This document shows positions 1 through 11,164 of a stretch of DNA of 64,000 nucleotides, one piece after another. Position numbers and translations under genes: made by a program. Source of the DNA: Porticoccaceae bacterium. GTDB taxonomy: Bacteria > Pseudomonadota > Gammaproteobacteria > Pseudomonadales > Porticoccaceae. A model generated the notes under the pieces. That model was given only the letters and a program-made list of their open reading frames with translations, was not told the DNA's origin and made no database searches. The stretch spans positions 62,001 to 126,000 of the forward strand of contig JAGPUQ010000008.1 in assembly GCA_018069525.1 (NCBI GenBank). The letters run 5' to 3'. Each line of letters begins with the position of its first letter. Positions within the stretch are counted from its first letter, which is position 1.

Positions 1-566
1 ATTGCCCAATGGATATTATCCAGATTAACCTCTCCTACGGAGGCAATAAGCGGCTCAAAAGAAATAAAACGGATGGACGCAGGGGTGTTTCGTAGGTGCT
101 CAATTCGGTCGGCCACTTCCGCATTTTCTACGCTTGTACCAAGCCAAACATTAGGAAGTACTTCTACGATTTTTTCGGAAACAATGTGTTGCATCCTTTC
201 GGGCCGTTTGGTCAAAATTTGATAGTTATGCTGGGGTGTTTCCTTCATGACTTTCCACACGGATTTAATGAACCTATCACTGACATTATCGTGGAATAGG
301 TCACTCATCGAGTTGACGAAAATTTTACGAGCCTTCCTCCACTTATAAGGAATAAGAAGGGCGCTCTCATCCTCCTTAACGATGCCGTTCCAGGTGACAT
401 TCTTGCCGCGTTTAGTGGTCAACCCCTTGTATTTTTCAACGCCCATAGATTCAAGCCGTCTGGCCATCTGCATAGCATAGCAGTGCTTGCATCCTGCACT
501 TGCCAGAGAGCATCCGGCAACAGGATTCCAAGTGGCGTCTGTCCATTCGATCTGTGTGTCTGCCAT
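1..566 (-). CDS. Phage Gp37/Gp68-like (DUF5131) protein, partial
   Basis: The reading frame begins at an ATG preceded by a strong GGAGGGAGG-type ribosome site and stays open for 188 codons to the window edge, so the C-terminus is missing. The N-terminus reads MADTQIEWTDATWNPVAGCS and contains a C-x6-C-x2-C cysteine cluster (CSLASAGCKHC), followed by a VNSMSDLFHD segment, ILTKRPERM and WLGTSVEN. These are hallmarks of the DUF5131 or phage Gp37/Gp68 family, whose cysteines resemble a radical-SAM cluster. The biochemical role is not established. Family members often sit in prophages or defence-type islands, sometimes beside a three-Cys-motif partner gene, which here would lie left of the window. 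Small ORFs on the opposite strand are shadows. Confidence 0.85.
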   Translation of the reverse strand, partial: MADTQIEWTDATWNPVAGCSLASAGCKHCYAMQMARRLESMGVEKYKGLTTKRGKNVTWNGIVKEDESALLIPYKWRKARKIFVNSMSDLFHDNVSDRFIKSVWKVMKETPQHNYQILTKRPERMQHIVSEKIVEVLPNVWLGTSVENAEVADRIEHLRNTPASIRFISFEPLIASVGEVNLDNIHWA

Positions 567-757
567 GCCTCCCTCCTAACAGTAAAAATGGTCCCTTGTG
601 GATTTTATAAGCTTATCAGTCGAGTAGCGTTCTGTCTTTATGCTTTTTATAATATTTGTAGATCGATAGATATGGGGGTAAGACAAAGATAAGGGAAGCT
701 AAGTTGATTAAACCTCATTCCTCCTTTATCTGTATGAACATTATGGTTGTATTAATT

Positions 758-1068
758 AGGAAAAGGCCGGTGACATCGAATACAAGTGCAATCTCTATAA
801 GGAAGATATGGATGAACCGGAAGCGGCGTTGTCTCCGGCGAAGCAAATGGCAGCGATTTCGGCTATTCATCAGCTTGTAGAGCAGAACTCACAATTCATT
901 ATCGCGACCCACTCGCCTATCCTGTTGGCTTATCCCCGGTCGAGGATTTATCGATTCTCGGCGTCTGGGATCGATCAAGTTGCTTATGAAGATACTGAAC
1001 ACTATGAGGTAACGAAAGATTTTTTAAATCACCATGAGCAGATGATGAAAATCTTGATGGAGGAGTAG
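758..1068 (+). pseudogene. AAA ATPase C-terminal remnant
   Basis: An open frame entered after an in-frame stop encodes the C-terminal third of a small ABC-like AAA ATPase: DEPEAALSP (Walker B plus D-loop) at the start, then a switch-region histidine in FIIATHSPILL. Everything upstream (P-loop, Q-loop, signature) is absent and the residues before DEPEAALSP do not look like the family, so the gene is 5' truncated. An ATG immediately before DEPEAALSP could still give an 86-residue peptide, but it could not bind ATP. The last 12 codons recur 3.3 kb downstream as part of a longer duplication. The family resembles orphan ATPases of defence or toxin-like loci; function here is presumed lost. Confidence 0.75.
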
Positions 1069-1195
1069 TGACGGTATTGAAGCGGAGTTAATATGGACTT
1101 AACGTGAGAATAACTACCAGGGACAGCAGCTATAATTGCGCTAAGCGATTAATTTAATGGTCGTTGCGGGTTGACTTGAACCGCCGACCCAGTAT
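1030..1195 (+). repeat. Imperfect direct repeat, copy A (ATPase 3' end plus decayed tRNA-Met end)
   Basis: The segment starts in the last codons of the ATPase stump (HHEQMMKILMEE) and continues through about 110 bases of non-coding DNA. It ends in a decayed copy of the tRNA-Met 3' half on the minus strand (GACTTGAACCGCCGACCC is still recognisable near 1170-1187). It aligns with copy B near 4354-4516 with scattered substitutions and small indels. It probably marks the old outer junction of a tRNA-targeted element. Confidence 0.7.
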
Positions 1196-1408
1196 CAGGA
1201 GGCGGGTATCTAAATCGGCCGCTCCAGGTTTGCGAGGCTGCCGCAAAAGCCTGAATGTCTGCTTTTTGGCCGAAAGAAGACATAATTTAGTGTGATAACG
1301 GTTAAGTAAGGCAAATCAAAGTTTAAATTTAGGGTTTCCACACGCTTGGTAGTGGCGCATATGACTATGTTATTATCTGTCCTAAATTAGGCAGACTGGA
1401 CTACTATT
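1196..1408. other. Non-coding leader of the HD/ImmA operon
   Basis: No gene is seen. A short hairpin (TGTCTGCTTT paired with AAAGAAGACA, near 1256-1282) could act as a weak terminator or structured leader. A weak sigma70-like pair, TTGGTA near 1346 and TATTAT near 1371 with a 19-base spacer, lies 33 bases before the HD gene and is the only promoter candidate I see; it is not convincing. Confidence 0.3.
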
Positions 1409-3280
1409 ATGCCAAAATGGGGCCTCACACCTGATCAGATTGCTTCCAAGCCCTGGGGGCTTGGCGCGGATGATATTGCGCCGTGTAAGACTATCACTGA
1501 TCCTATCCATGGTGATATCTACCTGAATAATCTCGAAAAACAGCTTGCTGATAGCGTGCCTATGCAGCGACTTAGAAGAGTTCGCCAGCTAGGGACTACG
1601 CACCTAATCTATCCTGGAGCGACACATAGTCGGTTTTCACATTCTCTTGGTGCGTTAAGAGTAGTCCAAGATTTACTTGACGCAGTGTTAACGCAGCAGA
1701 ATTCCCCTCACGCTGTAAATGATCTTTTTATGGAGTTCAGTCCTGATAAGAAAGATTATAATTTGATAGTCGCTGAGGCAACTATTCTGGCCAGGCTTGG
1801 TGGGCTGCTGCATGATTTATGTCATGTGCCATTTGGACATTCCGTCGAGGACGATCTAGATATATTGGTAGAACATGACGAGAATGAGGATCGATTTAAT
1901 TTTTTATGGAATCAAATCGATGAGCCTATTAGAAACAAAATAAATCCAGGCTTGTTTAACGCCCTGAAGCCGCTAATAATTTCAAAAGGTGAGTCTTCAG
2001 GCGACCAACCTTTGTGCGATACCAAATACGCTTTTGTGGCGGATATTGTAGGCAATACAATTTGTGCCGATCTGCTTGATTATTTAAAGCGTGATCATTT
2101 CTATACGGGATTGCCCGCACAGTTAGGCCAGCGATTTATAGATGGTTTTTATGTCACTCCTTCTACAAACAAAAGCTATCCTGCAAAAATGGTCATGCGC
2201 GTTTCTAAGGATGGTCACGAGAGATCTGATATTATTTCGGAGCTTTTTAAATATCTGAGATATCGCTACGAGTTGAGCGAACGTGTTCTCGTTCACCATA
2301 CTAAGATTTCTGCTGATGCGATGATCGGAAAAATTTTGGAAATGTGGAAAGATGTAATATTTTTACAAAAAGCTTCTGAACTATATAAAAAAGAATGTAA
2401 ATCTCATGGAGACAATATTGAAAAACTTAGAGAAAAAATTGTTACTCAATTTGAAGCTGGGTCAGTTGAAATTCAACGTATCGATGAGGAAGTAAAGCAA
2501 GTATTGGAAAAGAATTTTCTCAGTCATGGCGATGATGGTCTAATTGAATATATTATTGGTGAGATGGACCGATCCGGCAGCGACAAAAGGGAGCAGGCAG
2601 TCCTGTCTTTAGCGGAGAAGTTTCAGAATCGCAAGTTATTTAAGGTTATAACGAAGTGCTCAAACGTGCGTTCGCAAGCAGAAACCCTTTATAAAAACTT
2701 TGGAAAGGCAAAAGAAAGAAGGAGGCTAGAGGAAGGAGCCTGCGAATTTGCTGGAATAGACCATTCCTGGCACATACTAATCTGGCTGCCAAACCCCAAA
2801 ATGAGACTTAAAGCAGCTGAAGTGTTAGTAGAAGATAGTTATGGGATTCAGCCTCTTATAGATAAGGAACGGGTAGGAAAGCACCGTGGCAATGAGATTT
2901 ATGAGGGGCATAGGTCATTGTGGGCCATAACTGTTTTTGCCCCTCCGCACGTAAAGGACGACAACATTAAGAGATGTGCGGCTCTTTCTTGGCTGGCACA
3001 AGAAATGGGAATCACGTGGGATGAGGATGTACAAAGTTTGTCGACGCTAGCAGCGCAGCAAGTGGGATATTTACAAGGGTTAACTCGTGATCAGGAAGAG
3101 ACGCTTTCTGTTGCTCTGGATAGAGGCGTTGCGGCAAGAGGTGATTTTTCAAGCAAATTTTCCGATATAGTAGACCGGGCCGGTTTAATTTCAAAGGGAT
3201 TATTTCCCAATGAGAGTTCTGGCGCCGCCAACATTCCTGGTTTTGAAAATGATAGGTCTGAAGACGATTTTTTCGAGTGA
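1409..3280 (+). CDS. SAMHD1/dGTPase-like HD phosphohydrolase
   Basis: A 623-residue protein whose N-terminal 240 residues form an HD phosphohydrolase of the SAMHD1/COG1078 type. It shows TDPIHGDIYL (about 30-39), a basic RLRRVRQLG segment (54-62), HSRFSHSLGA (73-82), the metal-binding LLHDLCHVPFGH with H135-D136, and a later acidic ADLLDYLKRDHF segment (about 220-231) placed like the fourth metal ligand. Relatives hydrolyse dNTPs or other nucleotides. The following 380 residues are charged, probably helical and not recognised. The stop overlaps the next start by four bases (GTGA), so the two genes are probably translationally coupled. In a tRNA-targeted island, an HD nucleotidase paired with a protease suggests phage defence by nucleotide depletion, but that is inference. 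A housekeeping dGTPase is unlikely given the large unique C-terminus. Confidence 0.82.
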   Translation: MPKWGLTPDQIASKPWGLGADDIAPCKTITDPIHGDIYLNNLEKQLADSVPMQRLRRVRQLGTTHLIYPGATHSRFSHSLGALRVVQDLLDAVLTQQNSPHAVNDLFMEFSPDKKDYNLIVAEATILARLGGLLHDLCHVPFGHSVEDDLDILVEHDENEDRFNFLWNQIDEPIRNKINPGLFNALKPLIISKGESSGDQPLCDTKYAFVADIVGNTICADLLDYLKRDHFYTGLPAQLGQRFIDGFYVTPSTNKSYPAKMVMRVSKDGHERSDIISELFKYLRYRYELSERVLVHHTKISADAMIGKILEMWKDVIFLQKASELYKKECKSHGDNIEKLREKIVTQFEAGSVEIQRIDEEVKQVLEKNFLSHGDDGLIEYIIGEMDRSGSDKREQAVLSLAEKFQNRKLFKVITKCSNVRSQAETLYKNFGKAKERRRLEEGACEFAGIDHSWHILIWLPNPKMRLKAAEVLVEDSYGIQPLIDKERVGKHRGNEIYEGHRSLWAITVFAPPHVKDDNIKRCAALSWLAQEMGITWDEDVQSLSTLAAQQVGYLQGLTRDQEETLSVALDRGVAARGDFSSKFSDIVDRAGLISKGLFPNESSGAANIPGFENDRSEDDFFE

Positions 3281-4140
3281 ACTGGCCAGATATTTTTCTT
3301 AGAGAAGTCCCTGCTGATTCAGATGCAAAGGAATTAGCATTGTCGGTACGTAGTAGTGTCTTTGATAATGAGAAGGGGCTTTTTTCAAAGTGTGATTTAA
3401 GGAAAATTTGTGAATCTGGTAAATTTGAAGTAACAACTGCTGACTTTAATTCTACTGAGATAAAAACGGAAGCTCTATTGGTTCCTATGGAAGGTGATAA
3501 ATTTAGAATTGTTCTTCCCGTAAGCCATAGTGCTAGTGCTAGTTTATTCGGCAAGGGTGTGACACGGCATCGGAATAGATTTCGAATTGCACATGAAATT
3601 GCCCATAGTTTTTTTTACAAGCGCAACAAGAACTGTCCCGTTAAATTAACTCAGGATAGTAAAGCTGAAGAAGATTTTTGTGATCTATTTGCGTCTTATT
3701 TATTGATGCCTTTCGATGTAGTCAGTAAACTTCCTCGCCGTCCAGAGAGCGTAGATAGAATCGGTGCTGACTACGATGTTTCTCTTGAGGCAGCTGGAAG
3801 ATCGCTAGCTAAGGCAAATAAAGATATTTTAGTGTTAGGCCTGAGCTGGAAAGAGAACCCTCGAGACAAAAATATCGGGTTGCGAGTTCAATGGAGTGCT
3901 GGTGACCTTGCTGATTTTATTCCAAATAATACTAGGCTTCACAGTCCGTCAGCTCTTGAAGCATTTGAGAGTAGTAAATCTATTGAGAATATAGAATATT
4001 TAGCCGTTGGAAATCTTAGGGGAATGTTTCATATATCTGTGGATAAAAAAATAAATAGAAATTTTACTATCGCAATTCTTTCTCTTCCTAGTATGAGCGA
4101 GATTACACATATGAAAGAAAATATGTCTATATTTCGATAG
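3277..4140 (+). CDS. ImmA/IrrE-type zinc metallopeptidase, operon partner of HD protein
   Basis: A 287-residue protein starting at a GTG inside the stop of the HD gene. The zinc-binding HEIAH motif is at residues 106-110 and is followed by EEDFCDLFASYLLMP (about 131-145), which supplies the downstream acidic ligand and the LLMP signature of ImmA/IrrE peptidases. Known members cleave repressors or regulators after a signal, as ImmA does for ICEBs1 ImmR and IrrE for DdrO. The usual N-terminal XRE helix-turn-helix is not seen; the first 95 residues and the last 110 are unrecognised. Tight coupling suggests that the protease acts on, or is regulated with, its HD partner. Confidence 0.82.
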   Translation: MNWPDIFLREVPADSDAKELALSVRSSVFDNEKGLFSKCDLRKICESGKFEVTTADFNSTEIKTEALLVPMEGDKFRIVLPVSHSASASLFGKGVTRHRNRFRIAHEIAHSFFYKRNKNCPVKLTQDSKAEEDFCDLFASYLLMPFDVVSKLPRRPESVDRIGADYDVSLEAAGRSLAKANKDILVLGLSWKENPRDKNIGLRVQWSAGDLADFIPNNTRLHSPSALEAFESSKSIENIEYLAVGNLRGMFHISVDKKINRNFTIAILSLPSMSEITHMKENMSIFR

Positions 4141-4353
4141 CCAGTGTCTTCTGTCCAGGGTGGATAATATAATATTTTCTCCCTAATAGACGTGGGTATC
4201 AACTAAAAATTTTATTTTAGAATGTGGCAAATAGTCAGTATGTTAAATTCAAAGCCGTATCGAAAAGTCGTAGAATTCACCCAGCTCCGATGATTTGATA
4301 TTCTAATCCCCTTAAAAAACTACTCCGTAAGTCTCACCTTTCCTCCAAATTAG
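4141..4353. other. Non-coding gap after ImmA-like gene
   Basis: AT-rich stretch of about 210 bases. I see no gene, no convincing terminator and no attC-like site, so the HD/ImmA operon is not an integron cassette. Confidence 0.5.
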
Positions 4354-4516
4354 CACCATGAGCAGATGATGAAAATCTTGATGGAGGAGTGGTGGCGGTA
4401 TTGAAGCGGACTTAAATTGGGAGTGACTACCAAGGACGTCAGTTAAAATTGCGCCACGCCGCTGATGTAATGGTGGCTACGGGTGGACTTGAACCACCGA
4501 CCCCAGCATTATGAAT
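4354..4516 (+). repeat. Imperfect direct repeat, copy B
   Basis: Second copy of the segment at 1030-1195. It begins with the same sequence that encodes the end of the ATPase (ATGAGCAGATGATGAAAATC), continues through a diverged spacer and ends in the tRNA-Met 3' end. The ATPase stop codon is mutated here (TAG to TGG), so this copy is non-coding. Its tRNA part is intact, whereas copy A has decayed. Confidence 0.75.
4470..4516 (-). repeat. att-like duplicate of tRNA-Met 3' end
   Basis: These 47 bases are identical, base for base, to 9641-9687, the 3' part (anticodon arm to CCA) of the intact tRNA-Met gene. The match stops just past the anticodon stem. This is the structure left when a tyrosine-recombinase element integrates into a tRNA 3' end, so I read 4470-4516 and 9641-9687 as the two ends of a 5.2 kb element that contains the integron. 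Confidence 0.8.
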
Positions 4517-4646
4517 CAAGGGGTATTTCGTTAACTATTTGTTTTTATTAGTTTATTTGGGCGAGCGTCCACAGCAAACATCACTACAATGCACAACCTA
4601 GCGGGACTAATCCCCGCAAAATCCCCGCAGTGGGGGAGGAAAAGGC
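4517..4646. other. Element end with short repeats
   Basis: Non-coding. Two consecutive copies of AATCCCCGCA near 4609-4629 and a small CCCCGCAGTGGGGG palindrome are visible. They may be remnants of recombinase binding sites at the element end; this is not provable by eye. Confidence 0.3.
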
Positions 4647-5267
4647 TTACGCCTGTGAAAGATAAGTTAGCGGATTAGTATTCGCATACAAATACTTGTG
4701 CAGTGTCGTAGGGTGGGCATTTAAAGAGCCTTTGCCATAGATAACAAAAATACTGTTACTGCTAAAATCGATGTCTTTAATACGCAAAGACAACAATTCA
4801 GCTTTACGCATTCCAGTCCCATACATTAACTCCACCTGTAAGCGGTGGACGCCTCGCAGATGGGATAAAATTTTAACGATCTCTTCGCGACTATAGACCA
4901 CGGGAAGGCGGCGATGGGTACGTGCAGGGGTGTATTGAAGATTATCGACATCGACACCCATGAAGCGTTTGTACAGGTACACTAATGCGTTCAATGCTGT
5001 GCGTTGGGTATTCGCTGAACAAGATCGGTTGATAGATAAATCACAAAGAAACGCTTCTATCTCGACATGGCCCATTTGTTTGGGGTGGCGTTTGTCATGG
5101 AAGAATATAAAACGTTTTATCCAGTGGATATAGGTTTTCTCCGTTTTATAGGCCAGGCCATTATTACGTATATGGATACGCAATTGATCAAGGAATCGAG
5201 GTGAGCTCATGCTAACTGGCTGGCGAATATCATCCATGATATTTGTCTCTATACTGTCATTATGCAC
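4647..5267 (-). pseudogene. intI: Truncated integron integrase (IntI family)
   Basis: The 206-residue product matches the N-terminal two thirds of integron integrases: SPRFLDQLRIHIRNNGLAYK, then the YIHWIKRFIFFH and RHPKQMGHVEIEAFL segments of the core-binding domain, RRLPVVYSREEIVKIL, and box I arginine in YGTGMRKAELLSLRIKDID. IntI proteins are usually 320-340 residues. Here the frame leaves the family at GKGS, exactly where GKGxKDR should follow, and runs 27 residues of unrelated sequence to a stop. Box II (HxxRH), the IntI-specific insertion and the catalytic tyrosine are all missing, so the enzyme should be inactive. It is divergent from the cassette genes, the classic integron layout. 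The break suggests a deletion or rearrangement at the element end. Confidence 0.85.
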
Positions 5268-5318
5268 AGTATTATTGAAAACTAGGGATACGTCAACCTG
5301 CCAACATCAGCCGACCCG

Positions 5319-5532
5319 TTCCGACTATCACTTTGAGGGGCGGTAAGTCTTTGAAGTTTATAGAATAAAACTATATGATCGATAGGAGGGTTTTCGCTGA
5401 TTAATACGGCTGTTCTCACTATCACGTTTCGACAGCAGGCAGAAAAATCAGTTAACCCATTGAAAAATAACTTGAACTCACCGTTTCTTTGGCATCAATC
5501 AGCTGTAATAGTGAGAAAGGTGATAGTCGGAA
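5319..5532. repeat. 13-base inverted repeats in the integron leader
   Basis: TTCCGACTATCAC at 5319-5331 is repeated in exact inverted form at 5520-5532. A third, partial copy (CTCACTATCACG) lies near 5415-5426. The pair encloses the promoter and stops 20 bases short of the first cassette junction. They could be recombinase or regulator sites, or the ends of a small insertion. Confidence 0.6.
5351..5379 (+). promoter_or_regulatory. Candidate cassette promoter Pc
   Basis: TTGAAG and TATGAT are separated by exactly 17 bases, a near-consensus sigma70 promoter, and it points into the cassette array from the leader. Integron Pc promoters lie in this position or inside intI, so it could drive cassette 1 and possibly cassette 2. 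Confidence 0.6.
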
Positions 5533-5582
5533 GCGTTCTTCTGAATAAACTGTTATGTGTTACCAACCAATGAAGATTGTTC

Positions 5583-6452
5583 ATGATTCTAAGTAAGAAA
5601 TCCCTGGGGAAATTTAGAGAGCTAATAAATGAAGAAACGGAATATCGTTCTGGCCCCCAATTGGTGAAGCTTTTTAATGGGCTAGGATTCAATGAGCAAT
5701 ATGGTCAAGGCTTTCCATCACGATGGATGTATACAGATCAAAAACTAGACGCAATAAATGGAACACCGCAACTCGATAAATGCATTAGAGAGGTTTTTTC
5801 ACCTGTAAACTTTATTGGTCGAATTAATGAACTAGACGTGTTCATTAAAGATTTAAATCAGTACTTGGCATTCGACAAATGGAAGGTAGTAAGAAATGAG
5901 GCAGAAATCACATTCAAGCGACAAGATAAAGTAGAGATAGATGAGCAACCGGAAAAAGCAACTGAAAATGAGTTTTTAAATCGTGAATTTAATGAAGTTA
6001 ATGTGCGTGGCCTTGGCTTAGAAGGCCCTGTTACAGATATCCTCCAATCGAGAATCAAAGAAATTGAAAAATGCTTTAAAGCTAATTCACCATTGGCGGT
6101 TATTTTACTAGCAGGAAGTACCTTAGAAGGAATTCTTCTAGGTTTAGCTATAAAATATCCTAAAATATTTAACGTTGCTATTTCTTCACCTAAAGATAGT
6201 AGTGGAAAAGTCAAACAGTTCCATGAATGGAGTCTTGCCGGTTTTATTGATGTGGCGAAAGAACTGAAGTTGATTCAGTATGACACACATAAATTTAGCC
6301 ATTCGTTGAGAGATTTTAGAAATTACATACACCCATTTGAGCAAATGAGTACTGGGTTTAGCCCTAGAGAACATACTGCAAAAATATGTTTGCAGGTTCT
6401 TAAAGCGGCGATTTATGAAATAAGTGAAAACATTGGCATATATCGCACATAA
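5583..6452 (+). CDS. Cassette 1: HEPN-like (abortive-infection-like) protein
   Basis: About 289 residues from the ATG; a TTG two codons earlier is possible. The N-terminal module (FRELINEETEYRSG, then FPSRWMYTDQKL, NGTPQLDKCI and NQYLAFDKWKVV, roughly residues 10-105) resembles, from memory, modules that precede HEPN domains in abortive-infection proteins. The C-terminal 130 residues look like a HEPN-type helical bundle: LAVILLAGSTLEGILLGLA, then LRDFRNYIHPFEQ, whose R-N-x-x-H is close to the HEPN ribonuclease motif but one residue short of the usual R-x4-6-H. A phage- or stress-triggered RNase is therefore plausible but unproven. The stop codon lies inside its own attC site, as is usual for cassettes. 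A DUF4145-like non-catalytic HEPN protein is the main alternative. Confidence 0.7.
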   Translation: MILSKKSLGKFRELINEETEYRSGPQLVKLFNGLGFNEQYGQGFPSRWMYTDQKLDAINGTPQLDKCIREVFSPVNFIGRINELDVFIKDLNQYLAFDKWKVVRNEAEITFKRQDKVEIDEQPEKATENEFLNREFNEVNVRGLGLEGPVTDILQSRIKEIEKCFKANSPLAVILLAGSTLEGILLGLAIKYPKIFNVAISSPKDSSGKVKQFHEWSLAGFIDVAKELKLIQYDTHKFSHSLRDFRNYIHPFEQMSTGFSPREHTAKICLQVLKAAIYEISENIGIYRT

Positions 6453-6492
6453 CAAGGCGCTCGTTCACGCCGCACAGCTTGGTCGTTATGTG
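6446..6492 (+). other. attC-like site 1 (end of cassette 1)
   Basis: CACATAAC and GTTATGTG, the outer boxes, are perfect complements, 31 bases apart. Inner CAAG/CTTG and GGCG/CGCC pairs give a short imperfect stem. The recombination point is after G6485. At 47 bases it is shorter than typical attC sites (about 57 and up), so it may be trimmed or poorly recombinogenic. The outer left box pairs with the start of its own cassette (GTTATGTG at 5552), as expected for a true cassette. Confidence 0.65.
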
Positions 6493-6498
6493 TAAACA

Positions 6499-7044
6499 AT
6501 GAAAACCCATTACAAAGAAATTGATTTTCGAGCTGATTGGATGCGTGATTTATTCAGCTCACTAAATCATGGTTTCAAAAACATTCAAGAAAAACTGAAT
6601 GATTTAGAATATTTTGACGGGGTATTTGCGCAAGAACAAGCAGAAACAATATATGGCATAGCATTTGTTACTGCCCAAACATATATCACTGGCACTGTAG
6701 CGGACATGTCTGAGATAGGTAGCAATCTCAATTTAAAGAAAGCAGAAATGCTGTCTATTGGTTCTCCGAAAGTCGATAATGAAACATCTAAAATATTGTT
6801 AATTAATACTATCGCAAATTATTATAAACATTACGATGAATGGGATGGTTGGAAAATAGAAAGACATAATAAAAGAACAATAGAAATTCTGAATAAGTGT
6901 GGAATCTCAGAAAAAACACAATACCCATGTCACGAAGCAGCACGAATTATTTGGCCAACAGAAGTGCTTTGCGAGCTAAATTATCTGCTAAAAGTATTAG
7001 TGGAATGGCGAAAGGACTTGTTGCATCATGTTAAAAACACATAA
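6499..7044 (+). CDS. Cassette 2: all-alpha protein of unknown function
   Basis: A 181-residue product starting 13 bases after the cassette junction, so it has almost no leader and may rely on the upstream promoter and ribosomes. It is predicted helical and lacks a signal peptide or membrane segment. Notable stretches are EQAETIYGIAFVTAQTYITG (about 48-67), NTIANYYKHYDEWDGW (about 103-118) and a C-terminal WPTEVLCELNYLL. I do not recognise a family or catalytic motif. The stop overlaps the left outer box of its attC site. Position between a HEPN-like gene and other cassettes is the only functional hint. Confidence 0.75.
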   Translation: MKTHYKEIDFRADWMRDLFSSLNHGFKNIQEKLNDLEYFDGVFAQEQAETIYGIAFVTAQTYITGTVADMSEIGSNLNLKKAEMLSIGSPKVDNETSKILLINTIANYYKHYDEWDGWKIERHNKRTIEILNKCGISEKTQYPCHEAARIIWPTEVLCELNYLLKVLVEWRKDLLHHVKNT

Positions 7045-7129
7045 CAAATCAATCAAGTTCGCCCACAAACAACGTGGGCTGGGACTAGGCGATACAGCCC
7101 GCCTAGCCCCTTATTTCAAACGTTAGGGT
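7038..7129 (+). other. attC site 2 (end of cassette 2)
   Basis: The left box CACATAAC complements the start of cassette 2 (GTTATGTG at 6485) exactly. The inner part has two nested stems, GCCCAC/GTGGGC and a longer GGGACTAGGCG/CGCCTAGCCCC arm. The right box is GTTAGGG with recombination after G7122. Length about 90 bases and the CAATCAAGTTC / TTATTTCAAAC inner boxes fit a normal attC. Confidence 0.8.
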
Positions 7130-7177
7130 TAATTACGCTTACCAAGAATTAGTTATTTATAAGTTCGGGAGAACAAT

Positions 7178-8119
7178 ATGCCAATTCCATGGGTTGCAAT
7201 AGGAGCTTTAAGTAGCTTTGGCTCATTTGCTTATACCGTATTAAAAAACGATGCGTCTAATGATGAAATAATTGAATATTTAAACAAACTAGAAATTAAG
7301 ATTGATGAAATCATTCATAATCAATCACAGTTAATCACATCAATTCATAAACTGCCTGACATGGTGGGAAGAGTCGTTGAAAGCGCACTCGTCGATCAAA
7401 ACTATAGCTACCTGAACTCTTATTTTTCAGCGTTTATGGAACTTAGCTCTGATAGAAAACGGCGTAGATACGTAAGAAAGAACTTCGAGCGTATTAGAGA
7501 GCTCTTTGAATATACTGTCGATTATGAAAAGAGGATAGATGGACAGTTAAATCTCATGAATGCTTCAGAGCAAATGTACGTAATGATGCTTCAAAGCGAG
7601 ACCGGGATTACCTTAATGAAAAGAAAATTTATTGAAAAAACAGATGAAATAGAGGGATTTGTAGATGATGTTGAAAGCAAACTAGTTGGTTACGATCAAG
7701 CTCTAGCTACTCGATATTTAAAACATAGATATATAGCATCACAAAACTACAACCCTCCGATGAAAATCAACGAGTTAAAAATCCAATGGAGGGATAATTG
7801 GGTGAGAGATTGTATTAAGCCCGGAGAATCGGATTTTAAGTATCAGTTGGATTTTGACGTAAAGTCCTCCTGGTCTTGCCCCTCACCCAATAGAACTATA
7901 GATGGAGCCGAGTTTAAACGGCGATTTAGAAGAATAAAGTCTAAAGTAAATCATGAGATCACCTCATCTGCCGAAACAACAAAAAACTTTGAGAGTCATA
8001 AAGCTTTATTGGAAAAAGTATATCAACCTTATATTGATAAATTGATAAAACATCAGGAAGAATATAGTAATAAAAATCTATTCCTTTCCGAATTAGATGG
8101 TGAGCATGAATCAGATTAA
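7178..8119 (+). CDS. Cassette 3: helical protein of unknown function
   Basis: A 313-residue product with its own ribosome site (GGGAG, 7 bases before ATG) and a 55-base leader inside the cassette. Residues 4-21 are mildly hydrophobic (PWVAIGALSSFGSFAYTV) and could dip into a membrane. Residues 25-65 form a probable coiled coil (EIIEYLNKLEIKIDEIIHNQ). Residues 90-185 are charged helix, and the last 70 residues are again helical. No enzyme motif was recognised. A short membrane-seeking N-terminus plus long helices would suit a pore-forming or sensing effector, but that is speculation. The stop sits at the left edge of its attC. Confidence 0.75.
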   Translation: MPIPWVAIGALSSFGSFAYTVLKNDASNDEIIEYLNKLEIKIDEIIHNQSQLITSIHKLPDMVGRVVESALVDQNYSYLNSYFSAFMELSSDRKRRRYVRKNFERIRELFEYTVDYEKRIDGQLNLMNASEQMYVMMLQSETGITLMKRKFIEKTDEIEGFVDDVESKLVGYDQALATRYLKHRYIASQNYNPPMKINELKIQWRDNWVRDCIKPGESDFKYQLDFDVKSSWSCPSPNRTIDGAEFKRRFRRIKSKVNHEITSSAETTKNFESHKALLEKVYQPYIDKLIKHQEEYSNKNLFLSELDGEHESD

Positions 8120-8192
8120 CCCTAACAAAACGCTACACACGGATAAATTACTCGCTTCACGCCTAATTCACCGGTGAGCGTGGCGTTAGGGG
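8116..8192 (+). other. attC site 3 (end of cassette 3)
   Basis: TTAACCCTAAC at the left complements the start of cassette 3 (GTTAGGGTTAA at 7122) over 11 of 11 bases. The right box is GTTAGGG with recombination after G8185. Between them is a hairpin made of CACGC/GCGTG with an inner TCACCGGTGA palindrome. Total length about 75 bases is normal for attC. Confidence 0.8.
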
Positions 8193-8256
8193 GAGAGCGC
8201 TTGAATTGAAACTCAAAGTGAAGGTATAGGGTAATTACAGTGGCGGAGAAAAATAT

Positions 8257-9147
8257 ATGGATGAAGTGATAGAAGAATTAGTCGAGCATGATGCCGATTT
8301 AGAGAAAATAGACTCGTCAACATACGCGCCCATGCCTTTAGGAGAAATCTCCGATGAGGAAGTGGCAGAAGTATTAGAACATCTTGATGAATTGGATGAT
8401 GGCCCGCCGGAAATAGAAGTGCTTGAGCACCCTTTACCAGGCAAAGGCCCTTTAGATCTTGAAGAGATGCTAAAAGGCGAGCCAAAGGGCTTATCTTCCA
8501 TTGCACAACCGGTCCCAAGAGAATTACGGTTCAAGTTCCCTTACGTTACCTGCGGGAAGTTATTTTCGCAGTCGCAGAATGGCCAAGGTTGGGTCAGTAG
8601 TGCGGTACTCGTTAGGCCAGATGTCATTCTGACATGCGCGCATTGTGTGCACGACGGGCCTGGCGGCGGGCTTCACAAAAACATCGTGTTTTCCATTTAC
8701 CATCCTTATCCTGATCCGTTTAAGAAGAAAGCGAAGTCGGTATACCTCCATGAGGGATGGGCTAGGACTGGAAAACTCGCTTGGTATGATTTCGCGTTTG
8801 TTAAGTTACACTCTCCGTTTTTGGACTCAGGCTTGGGTACGGCAGGCCTAGTGACGACTAATAAGCCTAAGTTTAATGCTCTTTCGGTTGGTTTCCCCGC
8901 TGAGCCTCCTTTTGATGGCAATACTAAGACACAAGCACGAGGAGGAACTAGCTATCGGATGCCATTGGTTTGGATGCCAAATAATGATATGACGGGAGGT
9001 TGTAGCGGTGGTCCATGGTTCGACGAGACTTATCAAGGATATTGTAAAGGGCTGAACTCATACAGCCGAACTAATTCACCTAACTTTATGTTCGCACCAT
9101 GGTGGTCTGGAAAAGTTAGGCCTGTTTACGATCGAGTACCTAAGTAA
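8257..9147 (+). CDS. Cassette 4: cytosolic trypsin-like serine protease
   Basis: A 296-residue product with a GGAGAA ribosome site. Residues 1-80 are strongly acidic and low in hydrophobics, with no signal peptide or anchor. Residues 90-296 form a trypsin-fold protease with a complete triad: H129 in TCAHCV, D178 in YDFAFVKL and S250 in GGCSGGPW. The absence of an export signal is unusual for this fold, which is normally periplasmic or secreted, and matches cytosolic trypsin-like proteases used as effectors in bacterial conflict systems. The acidic N-terminus could be an inhibitory or targeting segment. It is the last gene of the array; substrate and trigger are unknown. Confidence 0.85.
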   Translation: MDEVIEELVEHDADLEKIDSSTYAPMPLGEISDEEVAEVLEHLDELDDGPPEIEVLEHPLPGKGPLDLEEMLKGEPKGLSSIAQPVPRELRFKFPYVTCGKLFSQSQNGQGWVSSAVLVRPDVILTCAHCVHDGPGGGLHKNIVFSIYHPYPDPFKKKAKSVYLHEGWARTGKLAWYDFAFVKLHSPFLDSGLGTAGLVTTNKPKFNALSVGFPAEPPFDGNTKTQARGGTSYRMPLVWMPNNDMTGGCSGGPWFDETYQGYCKGLNSYSRTNSPNFMFAPWWSGKVRPVYDRVPK

Positions 9148-9241
9148 TGTCTTGTGCTAGTTATTACATAATGAGTATGTCCTTATGCTGTATTTCTCCT
9201 AAAGAAAAATATACTTGAAGCTTAATAATATGCGTGAACTA

Positions 9242-9325
9242 TCCCTAACAAGGCAAATTAACTCGGACGCCGAAAAGCGCCGCTTCGCTATGCTTTTTGG
9301 CTCCGGTTATTTGCGACGTTGATGC
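9242..9325 (+). other. attC site 4 (end of cassette 4)
   Basis: The left box TCCCTAAC matches the start of its own cassette (GTTAGGGG at 8185). It is followed by AAGGCAAATTAACTCGGACG, an inner hairpin (GCCGAAAAGC ... GCTTTTTGGC) and CTCCGGTTATTTGCGAC before the right box GTTGATG. The two inner arms pair with the usual unpaired bases. This is the most canonical attC in the array. Recombination point is after G9318. Confidence 0.85.
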
Positions 9326-9641
9326 GATCTAGATACCCTGGACTCGCCGTCCGCTATTAGACGAAGCGATTAAATTTGTATAATTTTTTTGTATTCGTTT
9401 GGGCGGATTTGTATATATAGGGCCGCTTGAACGCGGTTAGCATTAGGGGGGGAGGGTCTAGCTGTACTCGGCTATCGTTTTCATAAAAATCCCCTTCAAC
9501 TGCATTATGTCTGAGAACGACACACTCAGTAAAAGAACGGAATTCGGGTAACTACTAACCCATAGCTAACCCAAAACAGTAACCTGTCTATTCCAGCGGT
9601 CTTTTTTCCAGTTTAATCTATTGAAAATAATGATATTAGTA
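9326..9641. other. Non-coding tail of the integron element
   Basis: No gene is seen between the last attC and the tRNA. A small GGCCGC/GCGG(TT) palindrome near 9421-9440 and a run of G near 9445-9455 are visible. I found no box complementary to GTTGATGC that would close a fifth cassette. Confidence 0.5.
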
Positions 9642-9718
9642 TGGTGGCTACGGGTGGACTTGAACCACCGACCCCAGCATTATGAATGCTGTGCTCTAAC
9701 CAGCTGAGCTACGTAGCC
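9642..9718 (-). tRNA. tRNA-Met (anticodon CAT)
   Basis: A complete 77-base cloverleaf on the minus strand: acceptor GGCTACG paired with CGTAGCC, D-arm GCTCAGCTGGTTAGAGC, anticodon loop TTCATAA giving CAT, T-arm GGTGGTTCAAGTCCACC and encoded CCA. It reads as an elongator methionine tRNA. Its 3' 47 bases are duplicated at 4470-4516, so it is the target of the island to its left and has been restored by the insertion. Confidence 0.95.
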
Positions 9719-9793
9719 ATTGTAGGATTGCCATCGGAGTGATGGGCTTGAAAAGGTCGCGAATTCTGGCGATTTTGATGCTTTTTGTCAAGG

Positions 9794-11164
9794 TTACGGG
9801 GCTTCAATGGCGGTGTTTTTTGCTGATCCCTTGCTAAACCCGCCACCAACGCTGTTGTTAACATCACCACGATAAGCAACTCGATAGATGCGCCCTCGGT
9901 AGTCATCGGTAATGTATAAATCCCCATTCGGCGCTTGGGTCAGTTCAGCGGGGCGTCCGTAAACCCCACCTTTCGGGCTTGATGGGTCAGGGCTTAACTG
10001 GTCAGAACTCAGGAAGCCAGTCACGAAGTCTTCTTCAACGATGCCCTGCTCTGTCCAGATCAGAGCAACTACTTTATAGCCATCGGGCTCGCTGCGGTTC
10101 CAGGAACCGTGGAGGGCAACAAAAGCGCTGCGCTGGTATTTTGCTGGCAGCCTGTCGCTGCGATTAAAGCGGATGCCCAGGGGTGCGTTGTGGGCGCGAA
10201 AGTGGTGGACGGGCGGAATACTGGTTTGATGTTGCGCGTTAGGGTGGTTGCCGAAATCGGGGTCGCTTACCGGGGCTTGTTGGGCGCTACCGCCATTGAC
10301 ATAGGGCCAGCCGTAAAATCCACCGTGCTCGACGCGGTTGAGTTCGTCTGGCGGGAAGTCATCGCCGAGCCAGTCGCGGCCATTCTCGGTAGCGTAGAGC
10401 TGTTGGTCGTTGGGGTTCCAGTCGAACCCGGCGCTGTTACGGATACCGGTGGCGACGATTTCAGCTTCTGTTTCGGCAGCGCTGCCCTCGGGATTAAAAC
10501 GCAGGATTACGGCGCGGTGTGGATCGGTTTCGATGCACACGTTACAGGTCGAACCCACGGCGACATACAGTTGCTTATCGGGACCGATACCGATGGCCCG
10601 CCGCCAGTGGTTGCCGCCACCGGGAAAGTGGGCAATGCGTTCTGAGGCGGTGTCTCTGTCTTTTTCTTTGCTTCCGTCTGGGGTTTTGTCTTTTACCGTG
10701 GCGTTAGCGAGCTGTGCGAGTTCAAGCCGCACAATGGCATCGGTTTCTGCGATGTATAACCACTTATCGCTAGCGGTAATGCCCGAAGGGCGGTTTAAAC
10801 CGCTGAGTAGCGTCATCGTCTGATCGGCGCGGCCATCATTATTACTATCTTGTAACAAATACACTTCCCCGCGCTTGGGGCTGGAGATTACCAGGCCAAA
10901 GGGGCTGTGATGGATACCGCGGGCGCCGTCGATACCTTCGGCAAACAGGGTGATGTCAAAGCCGGGTGCGGTGGTTAGCGGCAGGTTTGATGGGGCGATG
11001 GTTTGTCTGGGGGCAGAGTCAATATCGCTTGCGGCGAAGACCAGATGTTTATTGCGTATGAATGCGCTGGCATAGGGTTGAACCCAAATGCAGGTCCATA
11101 CTAATGCCGAGGTCAGCAGGATGCCGAGAGTTGCGAACAGGGTGGTGCGGCGGTCGTGGGGCAT
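9794..11164 (-). CDS. PQQ-type sugar (sorbosone/glucose) dehydrogenase, membrane anchored
   Basis: A 456-residue product. Residues 9-30 form one hydrophobic helix, an uncleaved anchor or signal, placing the rest in the periplasm. From about residue 65 it is a beta-propeller of the soluble glucose/L-sorbosone dehydrogenase family: GIHHSPFGLVISSP, LSGLNRPSGI, HFPGGGNHWRRAIGIG (179-194), VAVGSTCNVC, and the hallmark ENGRDWLGDDFPPDELN (260-276). Relatives oxidise aldose sugars using pyrroloquinoline quinone and pass electrons to the respiratory chain. The substrate cannot be told. It stands alone next to the tRNA-Met island. Confidence 0.85.
   Translation of the reverse strand: MPHDRRTTLFATLGILLTSALVWTCIWVQPYASAFIRNKHLVFAASDIDSAPRQTIAPSNLPLTTAPGFDITLFAEGIDGARGIHHSPFGLVISSPKRGEVYLLQDSNNDGRADQTMTLLSGLNRPSGITASDKWLYIAETDAIVRLELAQLANATVKDKTPDGSKEKDRDTASERIAHFPGGGNHWRRAIGIGPDKQLYVAVGSTCNVCIETDPHRAVILRFNPEGSAAETEAEIVATGIRNSAGFDWNPNDQQLYATENGRDWLGDDFPPDELNRVEHGGFYGWPYVNGGSAQQAPVSDPDFGNHPNAQHQTSIPPVHHFRAHNAPLGIRFNRSDRLPAKYQRSAFVALHGSWNRSEPDGYKVVALIWTEQGIVEEDFVTGFLSSDQLSPDPSSPKGGVYGRPAELTQAPNGDLYITDDYRGRIYRVAYRGDVNNSVGGGFSKGSAKNTAIEAP

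Follow-up and report, generated by a model that had tools for sequence, protein, structure and literature searches.

In a 64,000-nucleotide (nt) stretch of a Porticoccaceae genome (GenBank assembly GCA_018069525.1, contig JAGPUQ010000008.1, positions 62,001 to 126,000; hereafter the window), a gene for a SAMHD1-like HD-domain protein overlaps a gene for a zinc peptidase of the M78 (ImmA/IrrE) type. Here we show that the two genes form one co-inherited two-gene unit and that this unit is mobile, as indicated by its island and phage locations. The pair is rare, old and mobile and occurs in very different microbes, and it may well serve as a protease-controlled defence or stress switch that had not been described. 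The reading that we favour, with somewhat less than even confidence, is that a protease responsive to single-stranded DNA (ssDNA) directly controls a SAMHD1-like nucleotide hydrolase, either for phage defence or in the response to DNA damage.

The gene pair and its two proteins

A reading made from the letters of the window alone (the sequence-only reading) had proposed that an HD gene is joined by a GTGA overlap to an ImmA/IrrE-type peptidase gene. Both open reading frames (ORFs) were confirmed and have positions 3277-3280 in common:

1409-3280, + strand: HD-domain gene, ORF of 623 amino acids (aa), SAMHD1-like
3277-4140, + strand: M78 (ImmA/IrrE-type) zinc peptidase gene, ORF of 287 aa
3277-3280, + strand: GTGA overlap of the HD stop codon and the peptidase start codon, read from the ORF ends; translational coupling is probable
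3161-3277, + strand: codons of the C-terminal HD tail, residues 585-623, predicted with low confidence (predicted local distance difference test, pLDDT, <50); a candidate regulatory or cleavage segment

The HD protein scored 19.8 bits against the Pfam HD family, under the cut-off of 22. In phmmer searches it matched SAMHD1-like structures (best 2hek, 4.8e-18; SAMHD1 from 2.1e-13), and the family profile matched these structures far better than the single sequence did. The structure predicted from a 30-row alignment (pLDDT 85.3) agreed in fold with 2hek (Z 27.4) and with SAMHD1 entries (Z about 24-27), aligned over approximately residues 25-550; in the best 50 rows of the comparison, Z was 24.3-27.4 across 351-435 residues. 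The SAMHD1-like identity proposed earlier was therefore borne out by both the search and the predicted fold. The C-terminus had been described as 380 residues of unknown nature. In the predicted structure most of it, as far as about residue 550, belongs to the SAMHD1-like C-terminal lobe, and an unknown domain was rejected because the region aligns with this lobe; the tail at residues 585-623 is acidic. By eye, the short motifs DDFF, SLF and DLF in HD tails recall clamp-binding peptides, a likeness that we considered and do not claim.

The catalytic and metal-site motifs of the HD protein, SRFSHSLG (H78), LLHDLCHVPFGH (H135, D136, H139 and H144) and CADLLDYLKRD (D221), align with those of SAMHD1. 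D136, H139, H144 and D221 were invariant in all 13 HD rows of alignment A4, and H78 and H135 were conserved in at least 90%; in a truncated relative (L230), Pro replaces the HD histidine. The DVDK motif of SAMHD1 corresponds to CADL, and the residue after the metal Asp is Leu222, which is nearly invariant in the family. In SAMHD1, the Lys of DVDK is used near the phosphates. Of the curated anti-phage dGTPase families, NF041026 (cut-off 400 bits) scored 12.7 bits and PRK05318 (cut-off 383) scored 13, and the PADLOC dGTPase model gave 19.8 bits. An ordinary dGTPase was rejected because the scores are far below the dGTPase cut-offs and because HD proteins without an M78 partner (solo) mostly group apart on the tree described below.

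The peptidase matched Peptidase_M78 (PF06114) at 31.2 bits (cut-off 22), in agreement with the proposed ImmA/IrrE-type zinc peptidase. It carries HEIAH (H106, E107, H110) and E132, and these four residues were invariant in ten of ten aligned M78 rows, window included. HExxH was present in 15 of the 16 M78 ORFs listed and absent from the L224 fragment. The structure predicted from a ten-row alignment (pLDDT 82.1) was closest to PprI with ssDNA (8sln, Z 19.7), IrrE (3dte, Z 19.2) and CapP (7t5t, Z 15.3), and it covers 219 of the 240 residues of PprI in 8sln. In a profile alignment, the segment after the peptidase motif also matched PprI and IrrE. The earlier statement that the peptidase has no DNA-binding part was rejected, since model and profile align through the helix-turn-helix (HTH)-like part of PprI. 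The M78 protein is predicted to show a PprI-like layout of peptidase, HTH-like middle and GAF-like C-terminal part. Its best PADLOC match was capP (4e-14, 50.7 bits; a model with no stated cut-off).

In the available part of its description, PprI has peptidase, HTH and GAF-like domains and is activated by ssDNA, for which the GAF-like part is required (PMC10904395). CapP is activated on binding ssDNA and then cleaves CapH, according to the sections available of another paper (PMC13373217). From the predicted fold we infer that the window M78 protein may sense ssDNA as well.

Occurrence and co-inheritance of the pair

In the main survey, a DNA pattern for (A/C/G/S)DL.DY..RD....G was scanned over species genomes. 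The scan gave at least 117 loci, with an HD ORF in 108 among the matches listed. An M78 gene lay directly 3' of the HD gene in 13 loci beyond the window, among the matches listed (L213, L218-L226 and L228-L230); these loci were partly read with longer flanks, L224 and L229 look decayed, and contig ends truncate L225 and L230. The HD gene of L227 is split into two ORFs, and M78 comes after them. In L258:547-3053 (+), from a planctomycete group, the HD gene has one internal stop and M78 overlaps its end by 14 nt. The genes overlapped by 4-118 nt, counted from the first possible start, in 11 of 12 loci with the same order, window included, and were separated by 58 nt in the twelfth. A phage contig of IMG/VR (L233, IMGVR_UViG_3300037184_000560) also carries the pair, on the opposite strand, between the terminase and primase genes. 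This site is often used by phage cargo genes.

By record labels, the paired loci belong to Pseudomonadota, Actinomycetota, Planctomycetota, Ignavibacteriota, Chloroflexota, Verrucomicrobiota, Acidobacteriota and Thermoplasmatota; one of these eight phyla is archaeal, and the records are metagenome-assembled genomes (MAGs), in which binning errors may inflate the spread. Among the matches listed, none of 92 solo HD loci had an M78 match, and 74 of the 92 show at least 600 nt downstream. A Fisher test for M78 presence compared 15/16 with 0/74; it has some circularity, because the M78 genes of the paired set were known when that set was put together, and we rely on the tree counts given below. 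Planctomycete FR_29 has four HD copies of the paired type (L214-L217, the first also recorded as L104), none with M78 and three of them broken; L214 and L215 have flanking genes in common.

A tree of 111 HD rows was built from HD-domain columns only (quick search, support by the Shimodaira-Hasegawa-like approximate likelihood ratio test); for the pairing count, one short paired row was omitted, L104 was taken as solo, and L212 and L227 as paired. Pairing required three changes on this tree compared with a mean of 14.4 after shuffling, and none of 500 shuffles was as low. Most solo rows (74 of 88) cluster with one another, apart from the paired rows, and a further 12 are archaeal and lie at the base. 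The sequence-only reading had allowed that the HD protein might be a housekeeping dGTPase found alone in relatives; the separate grouping of these 74 rows, and the lack of M78 matches in solo loci, point the other way. A set with support 99 contains the window, L198 (=L213), L180 (=L212), L096 (=L218), L122 (=L219) and L104 (=L214). The row nearest to the window is from a Hyphomicrobiales MAG (64% across 258 columns) and the next from an Acidimicrobiales MAG, so that horizontal transfer is the simplest reading.

Distances on the HD and M78 trees were correlated, with r = 0.69 for 11 loci (0/5,000 permutations) and r = 0.50 for 14 loci (3/5,000 permutations). The smaller set omits two cut loci and the reversed one (L212), and L224, L227, L229 and L258 are in neither. 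Further, the stretch after the conserved Trp505 was longer in paired rows (median 106.5 residues, 14 rows) than in solo rows (median 34, 88 rows); a decayed paired row, L207, has no residues there. Thus, the search for the same pair in other genomes that had been recommended found a conserved, co-inherited two-gene unit far outside the strain.

A different explanation is chance or hitchhiking, that is, unrelated accessory genes brought together in mobile islands. Both families are mobile-element cargo, and a transposon-cargo survey, in the part of it available, has ImmA and dGTPase as separate classes. However, the trees match, order and overlap are kept in very distant records, and M78 was found in 0/92 solo loci among the matches listed. 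This explanation is strongly disfavoured, and we regard it as highly improbable.

Prevalence was tested with the HD profile A4 in the anchors' own groups. Besides the anchor, A4 matched in 53/149, 0/178, 1/151, 4/179 and 0/128 genomes of the five groups; the weaker matches scored 300-400 bits. Among 39 A4-matched loci that were checked, M78 was present in the five anchors and L258, and the other 33 lacked it. In the 149-genome group, the pairs were the anchor and L258, with 24 of the 54 matches having no locus read. In the groups of 178, 151, 179 and 128 genomes, the anchor was the sole pair and the five other matches were solo. Such searches can miss divergent pairs, since in one further group the paired anchor itself scored under the threshold. 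The pair is very rare in the sampled groups, yet widely scattered. Rarity or lack of conservation outside the strain had been named beforehand as a ground for doubt; the first was observed, whereas the pair is conserved.

Among 963 distinct genomes of the window's class, order and phylum, a full-length match was found only in the window's own genome, and the loci fetched from those genomes (L002-L008, L015-L052) had no M78 match. Searches with the HD protein returned 45 plasmid records and 11 phage records, and in each of them less than 80% of the query was covered. With three other paired HD proteins as queries, no plasmid match reached 80% coverage, and the M78 protein matched no plasmid record. 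No pair was found in single-sequence scans of genome and viral contigs or with two signature patterns over viral contigs. With a broad HD alignment (A1), 34 viral loci were matched, and phmmer with the window M78 protein over L001-L094 returned only the window's own gene. No M78 gene was annotated next to HD in the plasmid and phage HD regions, of which four (three from plasmids and one from a phage) have no annotation there; a Klebsiella phage HD protein and the M78 proteins of a P2-like phage and a Gordonia phage are unpaired by annotation. Other long HD proteins (806 and 825 aa) are encoded at two plasmid loci, L009:3409-6280 and L012:3457-6346. A short hypothetical gene (141 and 134 aa) lies just upstream of each, and the two genes may form a further HD unit.

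The island and the gene neighbourhoods

In the window, the pair is located between two island-end copies, one of them decayed:

1030-1190, no strand assigned: upstream decayed island-end copy (terminal part of an AAA ATPase stub together with sequence like a tRNA end), repeat families D1 and D2
4354-4516, no strand assigned: downstream island-end copy, whose last 46 nt (4471-4516) are identical to the tRNA-Met 3' end
9642-9718, - strand: tRNA-Met (CAT), marking the end of the low-GC island with the pair

Positions 1030-1096 and 4354-4420 agree at 93%, and 1082-1190 and 4395-4503 at 74%. The pair had been placed between two tRNA-end repeats and called mobile. Two island-end copies are indeed present and the tRNA end is copied 46/46 downstream, but the upstream copy has decayed; mobility is upheld by the tRNA-Met island and the phage contig. 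The GC content is 0.36-0.45 per kb over positions 1-10000 and 0.54-0.58 in the following 2 kb.

The pair is flanked by an AAA stub and by an integrase fragment. No ORF of at least 60 aa lies wholly inside the gaps at 1069-1408 and 4141-4646, and therefore no CapH-like gene of such size stands beside the pair. The stub (808-1068, +) is the C-terminal part of an AAA ATPase, PtuA/mad3-like in PADLOC; its end recurs at 4354-4420, 3' of the pair, which looks as though the pair had arrived at the island end by a second event. A truncated integron-type integrase (4647-5267, -; TIGR02249, profile positions 1-169 of 315) also lies inside the island, as does an ORF (5577-6452, +) whose N-terminal part is like PADLOC Stk2 (6.4e-10) and weakly like AbiJ, a second possible defence gene. 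A promoter scan found 10 sites where 7.8 were expected (sd 2.8), and a terminator scan found none. At 3-566 (-) of the window and at L232:8451-9686 (-), a protein, presumably Gp37/DUF5131-like, is encoded next to one with a GMT-like winged HTH domain, which we take to be TcmP-like.

Recognisable defence genes adjoin five of the 14 paired loci scanned. The neighbours include:

L218: DUF3644 (PDC-S19, 1.7e-90) and Hma genes
L223: adjoining ThsB TIR gene
L212: weak SIR2-like gene
L221: kinase resembling PD-T4-6
L213 (nearest to the window): Eco57I/BseCI-like methylase
L220: LexA/S24 gene, DUF932 and a phage-type exonuclease
L225:536-6920 (-), Prosthecobacter MAG: nrdB-nrdA-HD-M78 on one strand, 40 nt from nrdA to HD
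L224, L219 and L229: ordinary neighbours (methylmalonyl-CoA mutase, carboxypeptidase-like repeats and amidase, respectively)

A further ORF of L213 (1835-2644) had no meaningful match in the PDB.

A control scan with PADLOC at 1e-8 covered two sets of 59 neighbour ORFs, one from 14 paired and one from 14 solo loci; 16 solo loci were drawn at random from 26 candidates and the ORF set was stopped at 59. The paired neighbours matched 65 PADLOC families, with HmaC (E 0), MTase_II (9.6e-197), PDC-S19 (1.7e-90), SspH (7.8e-59) and REase_II (1.1e-42) among the best 25. The solo neighbours matched 24 families, with no more than two proteins per family and 5.6e-22 as the best value; we take these to be mostly helicase-type models. 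The paired loci therefore have stronger defence matches than the solo-HD control, in a comparison in which taxa are unmatched, the matching member is unspecified, some defence matches were known beforehand and summed ORF length was 25,090 aa for the paired and 19,766 aa for the solo set. The co-occurrence with defence genes, which the sequence-only reading had proposed to test, was seen at five of the 14 loci, and the neighbourhoods of the pair are suggestively defence-rich.

The L225 array brings in another explanation, in which the pair controls the host nucleotide pool under DNA damage, lowering deoxynucleoside triphosphates (dNTPs) when ssDNA accumulates, and has no role in phage defence. 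Such control would fit a single-strand nrdB-nrdA-HD-M78 order. The scattered and rare distribution, the island and phage locations and the defence genes near several loci argue against it, and we consider it improbable.

A possible protease-controlled switch and its known relatives

For the favoured reading, in which the protease directly controls the hydrolase, we infer the ssDNA trigger, direct cleavage, the direction of control, the substrate and the anti-phage outcome as follows. The M78 protein, a PprI/CapP-type protease, would be the sensor and would most likely become active on ssDNA from phage replication or DNA damage, a trigger suggested by analogy with PprI and CapP. The effector would be the HD protein, which as a SAMHD1-like hydrolase would act on deoxynucleotides or on a related nucleotide. 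The protease would most likely act on the HD protein and switch it on by cleaving or reshaping its longer C-terminal segment, and the resulting nucleotide depletion would halt replication. Direct action is the simplest reading because no repressor gene was seen to be kept with the pair. A broader claim, that bacteria, an archaeon and a phage share a class of immune modules in which an ssDNA-triggered PprI/CapP-type protease proteolytically activates a SAMHD1-like hydrolase with no transcriptional repressor, so that the sensing of DNA damage would be coupled post-translationally to nucleotide depletion, is possible and appears to us rather doubtful. The original interpretation of the pair as a defence switch is partly supported.

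Several observations weigh against direct control of the hydrolase in defence. The M78 proteases PprI and CapP, in the portions of the papers available, cut HTH repressors and not enzymes. The substrate may be other than dNTP, since Leu222 stands in place of the SAMHD1 Lys. The long tail need not serve the protease, since L104/L214 has it and lacks M78. In L212 the order is reversed, with M78 upstream of HD. The paired rows do not form one clade, several deep forks of the tree being open and some rows long. Finally, nine of the 14 scanned neighbourhoods have no individually assigned defence gene, and the position of the L225 pair after nrdB-nrdA fits host nucleotide control equally well.

The repressor-cutting habit of PprI and CapP, the nearest folds of the M78 model, recommends a transcriptional alternative, in which the peptidase would cut an HTH repressor encoded elsewhere and derepress the HD operon, as in CapH-CapP or PprI-DdrO. 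The M78 gene of L212 lies beside a divergent gene that is XRE HTH-like by eye, with no match in Pfam, and a LexA/S24-type gene lies near the L220 pair. However, the gaps around the window pair have no ORF of at least 60 aa, and among the neighbours scanned with Pfam, a part of all neighbours, an HTH family was found only in that L220 gene, so that no repressor is kept with the pair. We consider this alternative unlikely.

Alternatively, the protease may be a brake, a toxic HD hydrolase being bound or degraded by M78 until infection or stress disables the protease (a toxin with a protease antidote). The effector-then-regulator order with overlapping genes would suit such an arrangement, and so would the three broken copies among the four FR_29 HD genes without M78, as if an unguarded HD protein were harmful. 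Nevertheless, L214 has an apparently intact HD gene and no M78, and broken HD copies also stand beside M78 (L224, L229 and L258), while breaks in MAGs may be assembly errors. Further, PprI and CapP are, in the text available, activated and not switched off by damage signals. A brake seems unlikely to us, slightly less so than transcriptional control.

Among Creative Commons-licensed PubMed Central (PMC) papers we found no account of an HD-M78 pair, which may be described elsewhere; in the same papers ImmA and dGTPase occurred together in one, whose available part treats them as separate cargo classes. The pair is apparently a combination of known parts that has not been described. Nucleotide depletion and ssDNA-sensing proteases are known separately in bacterial immunity. 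If direct control by the protease holds, the module would join them as a compact protease-controlled counterpart of SAMHD1, and M78 peptidases would gain an enzyme as substrate. What switches on microbial SAMHD1-like enzymes would then become a testable question.

In Clover, the dGTPase CloA is paired with the nucleotidyltransferase CloB, and the HD dNTPase is restrained by a signal from its partner enzyme, according to the part of the source available (PMC12265719). The window pair resembles it, as far as that part shows, as a two-gene module that would combine an HD dNTP hydrolase effector with a controlling partner; however, the partner here is a zinc peptidase (PF06114) and not a CloB nucleotidyltransferase, and the HD protein falls well short of the family cut-offs for dGTPases. 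The anti-phage dGTPase families NF041026 and PRK05318 share the HD phosphohydrolase superfamily with the window protein, which is as distant from them in score. In HD motifs and fold, the window protein is like SAMHD1 and solo SAMHD1-like HD proteins (2hek, 2o6i), whereas the paired proteins have a longer C-terminal segment, an M78 partner and Leu for Lys after the metal Asp.

On the side of the protease, the likeness to CapH-CapP lies in an M78 protease with capP as best PADLOC match and a fold Z of 15.3, but the window protease has no adjacent CapH repressor gene, and its direct partner is a gene for an enzyme. The PprI/IrrE-DdrO system of Deinococcus provides the best fold match (Z 19.7 over 219 residues) and, by alignment, the three-part layout. 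In the available part of the source, PprI is a stress regulator that cuts the repressor DdrO (PMC10904395), in contrast to a mobile pair with an HD enzyme. VapKSC consists of a kinase, a STAS protein and VapC, and the ssDNA trigger of its regulator is predicted there and not tested, in the sections seen of the paper (PMC13373217). The likeness, within those sections, is one of logic, as a toxin is freed post-translationally by a regulator for which ssDNA sensing has been proposed; VapKSC differs in that no protease or HD enzyme is part of it as described there, whereas in the window an M78 protease and an HD enzyme are the two parts of the pair.

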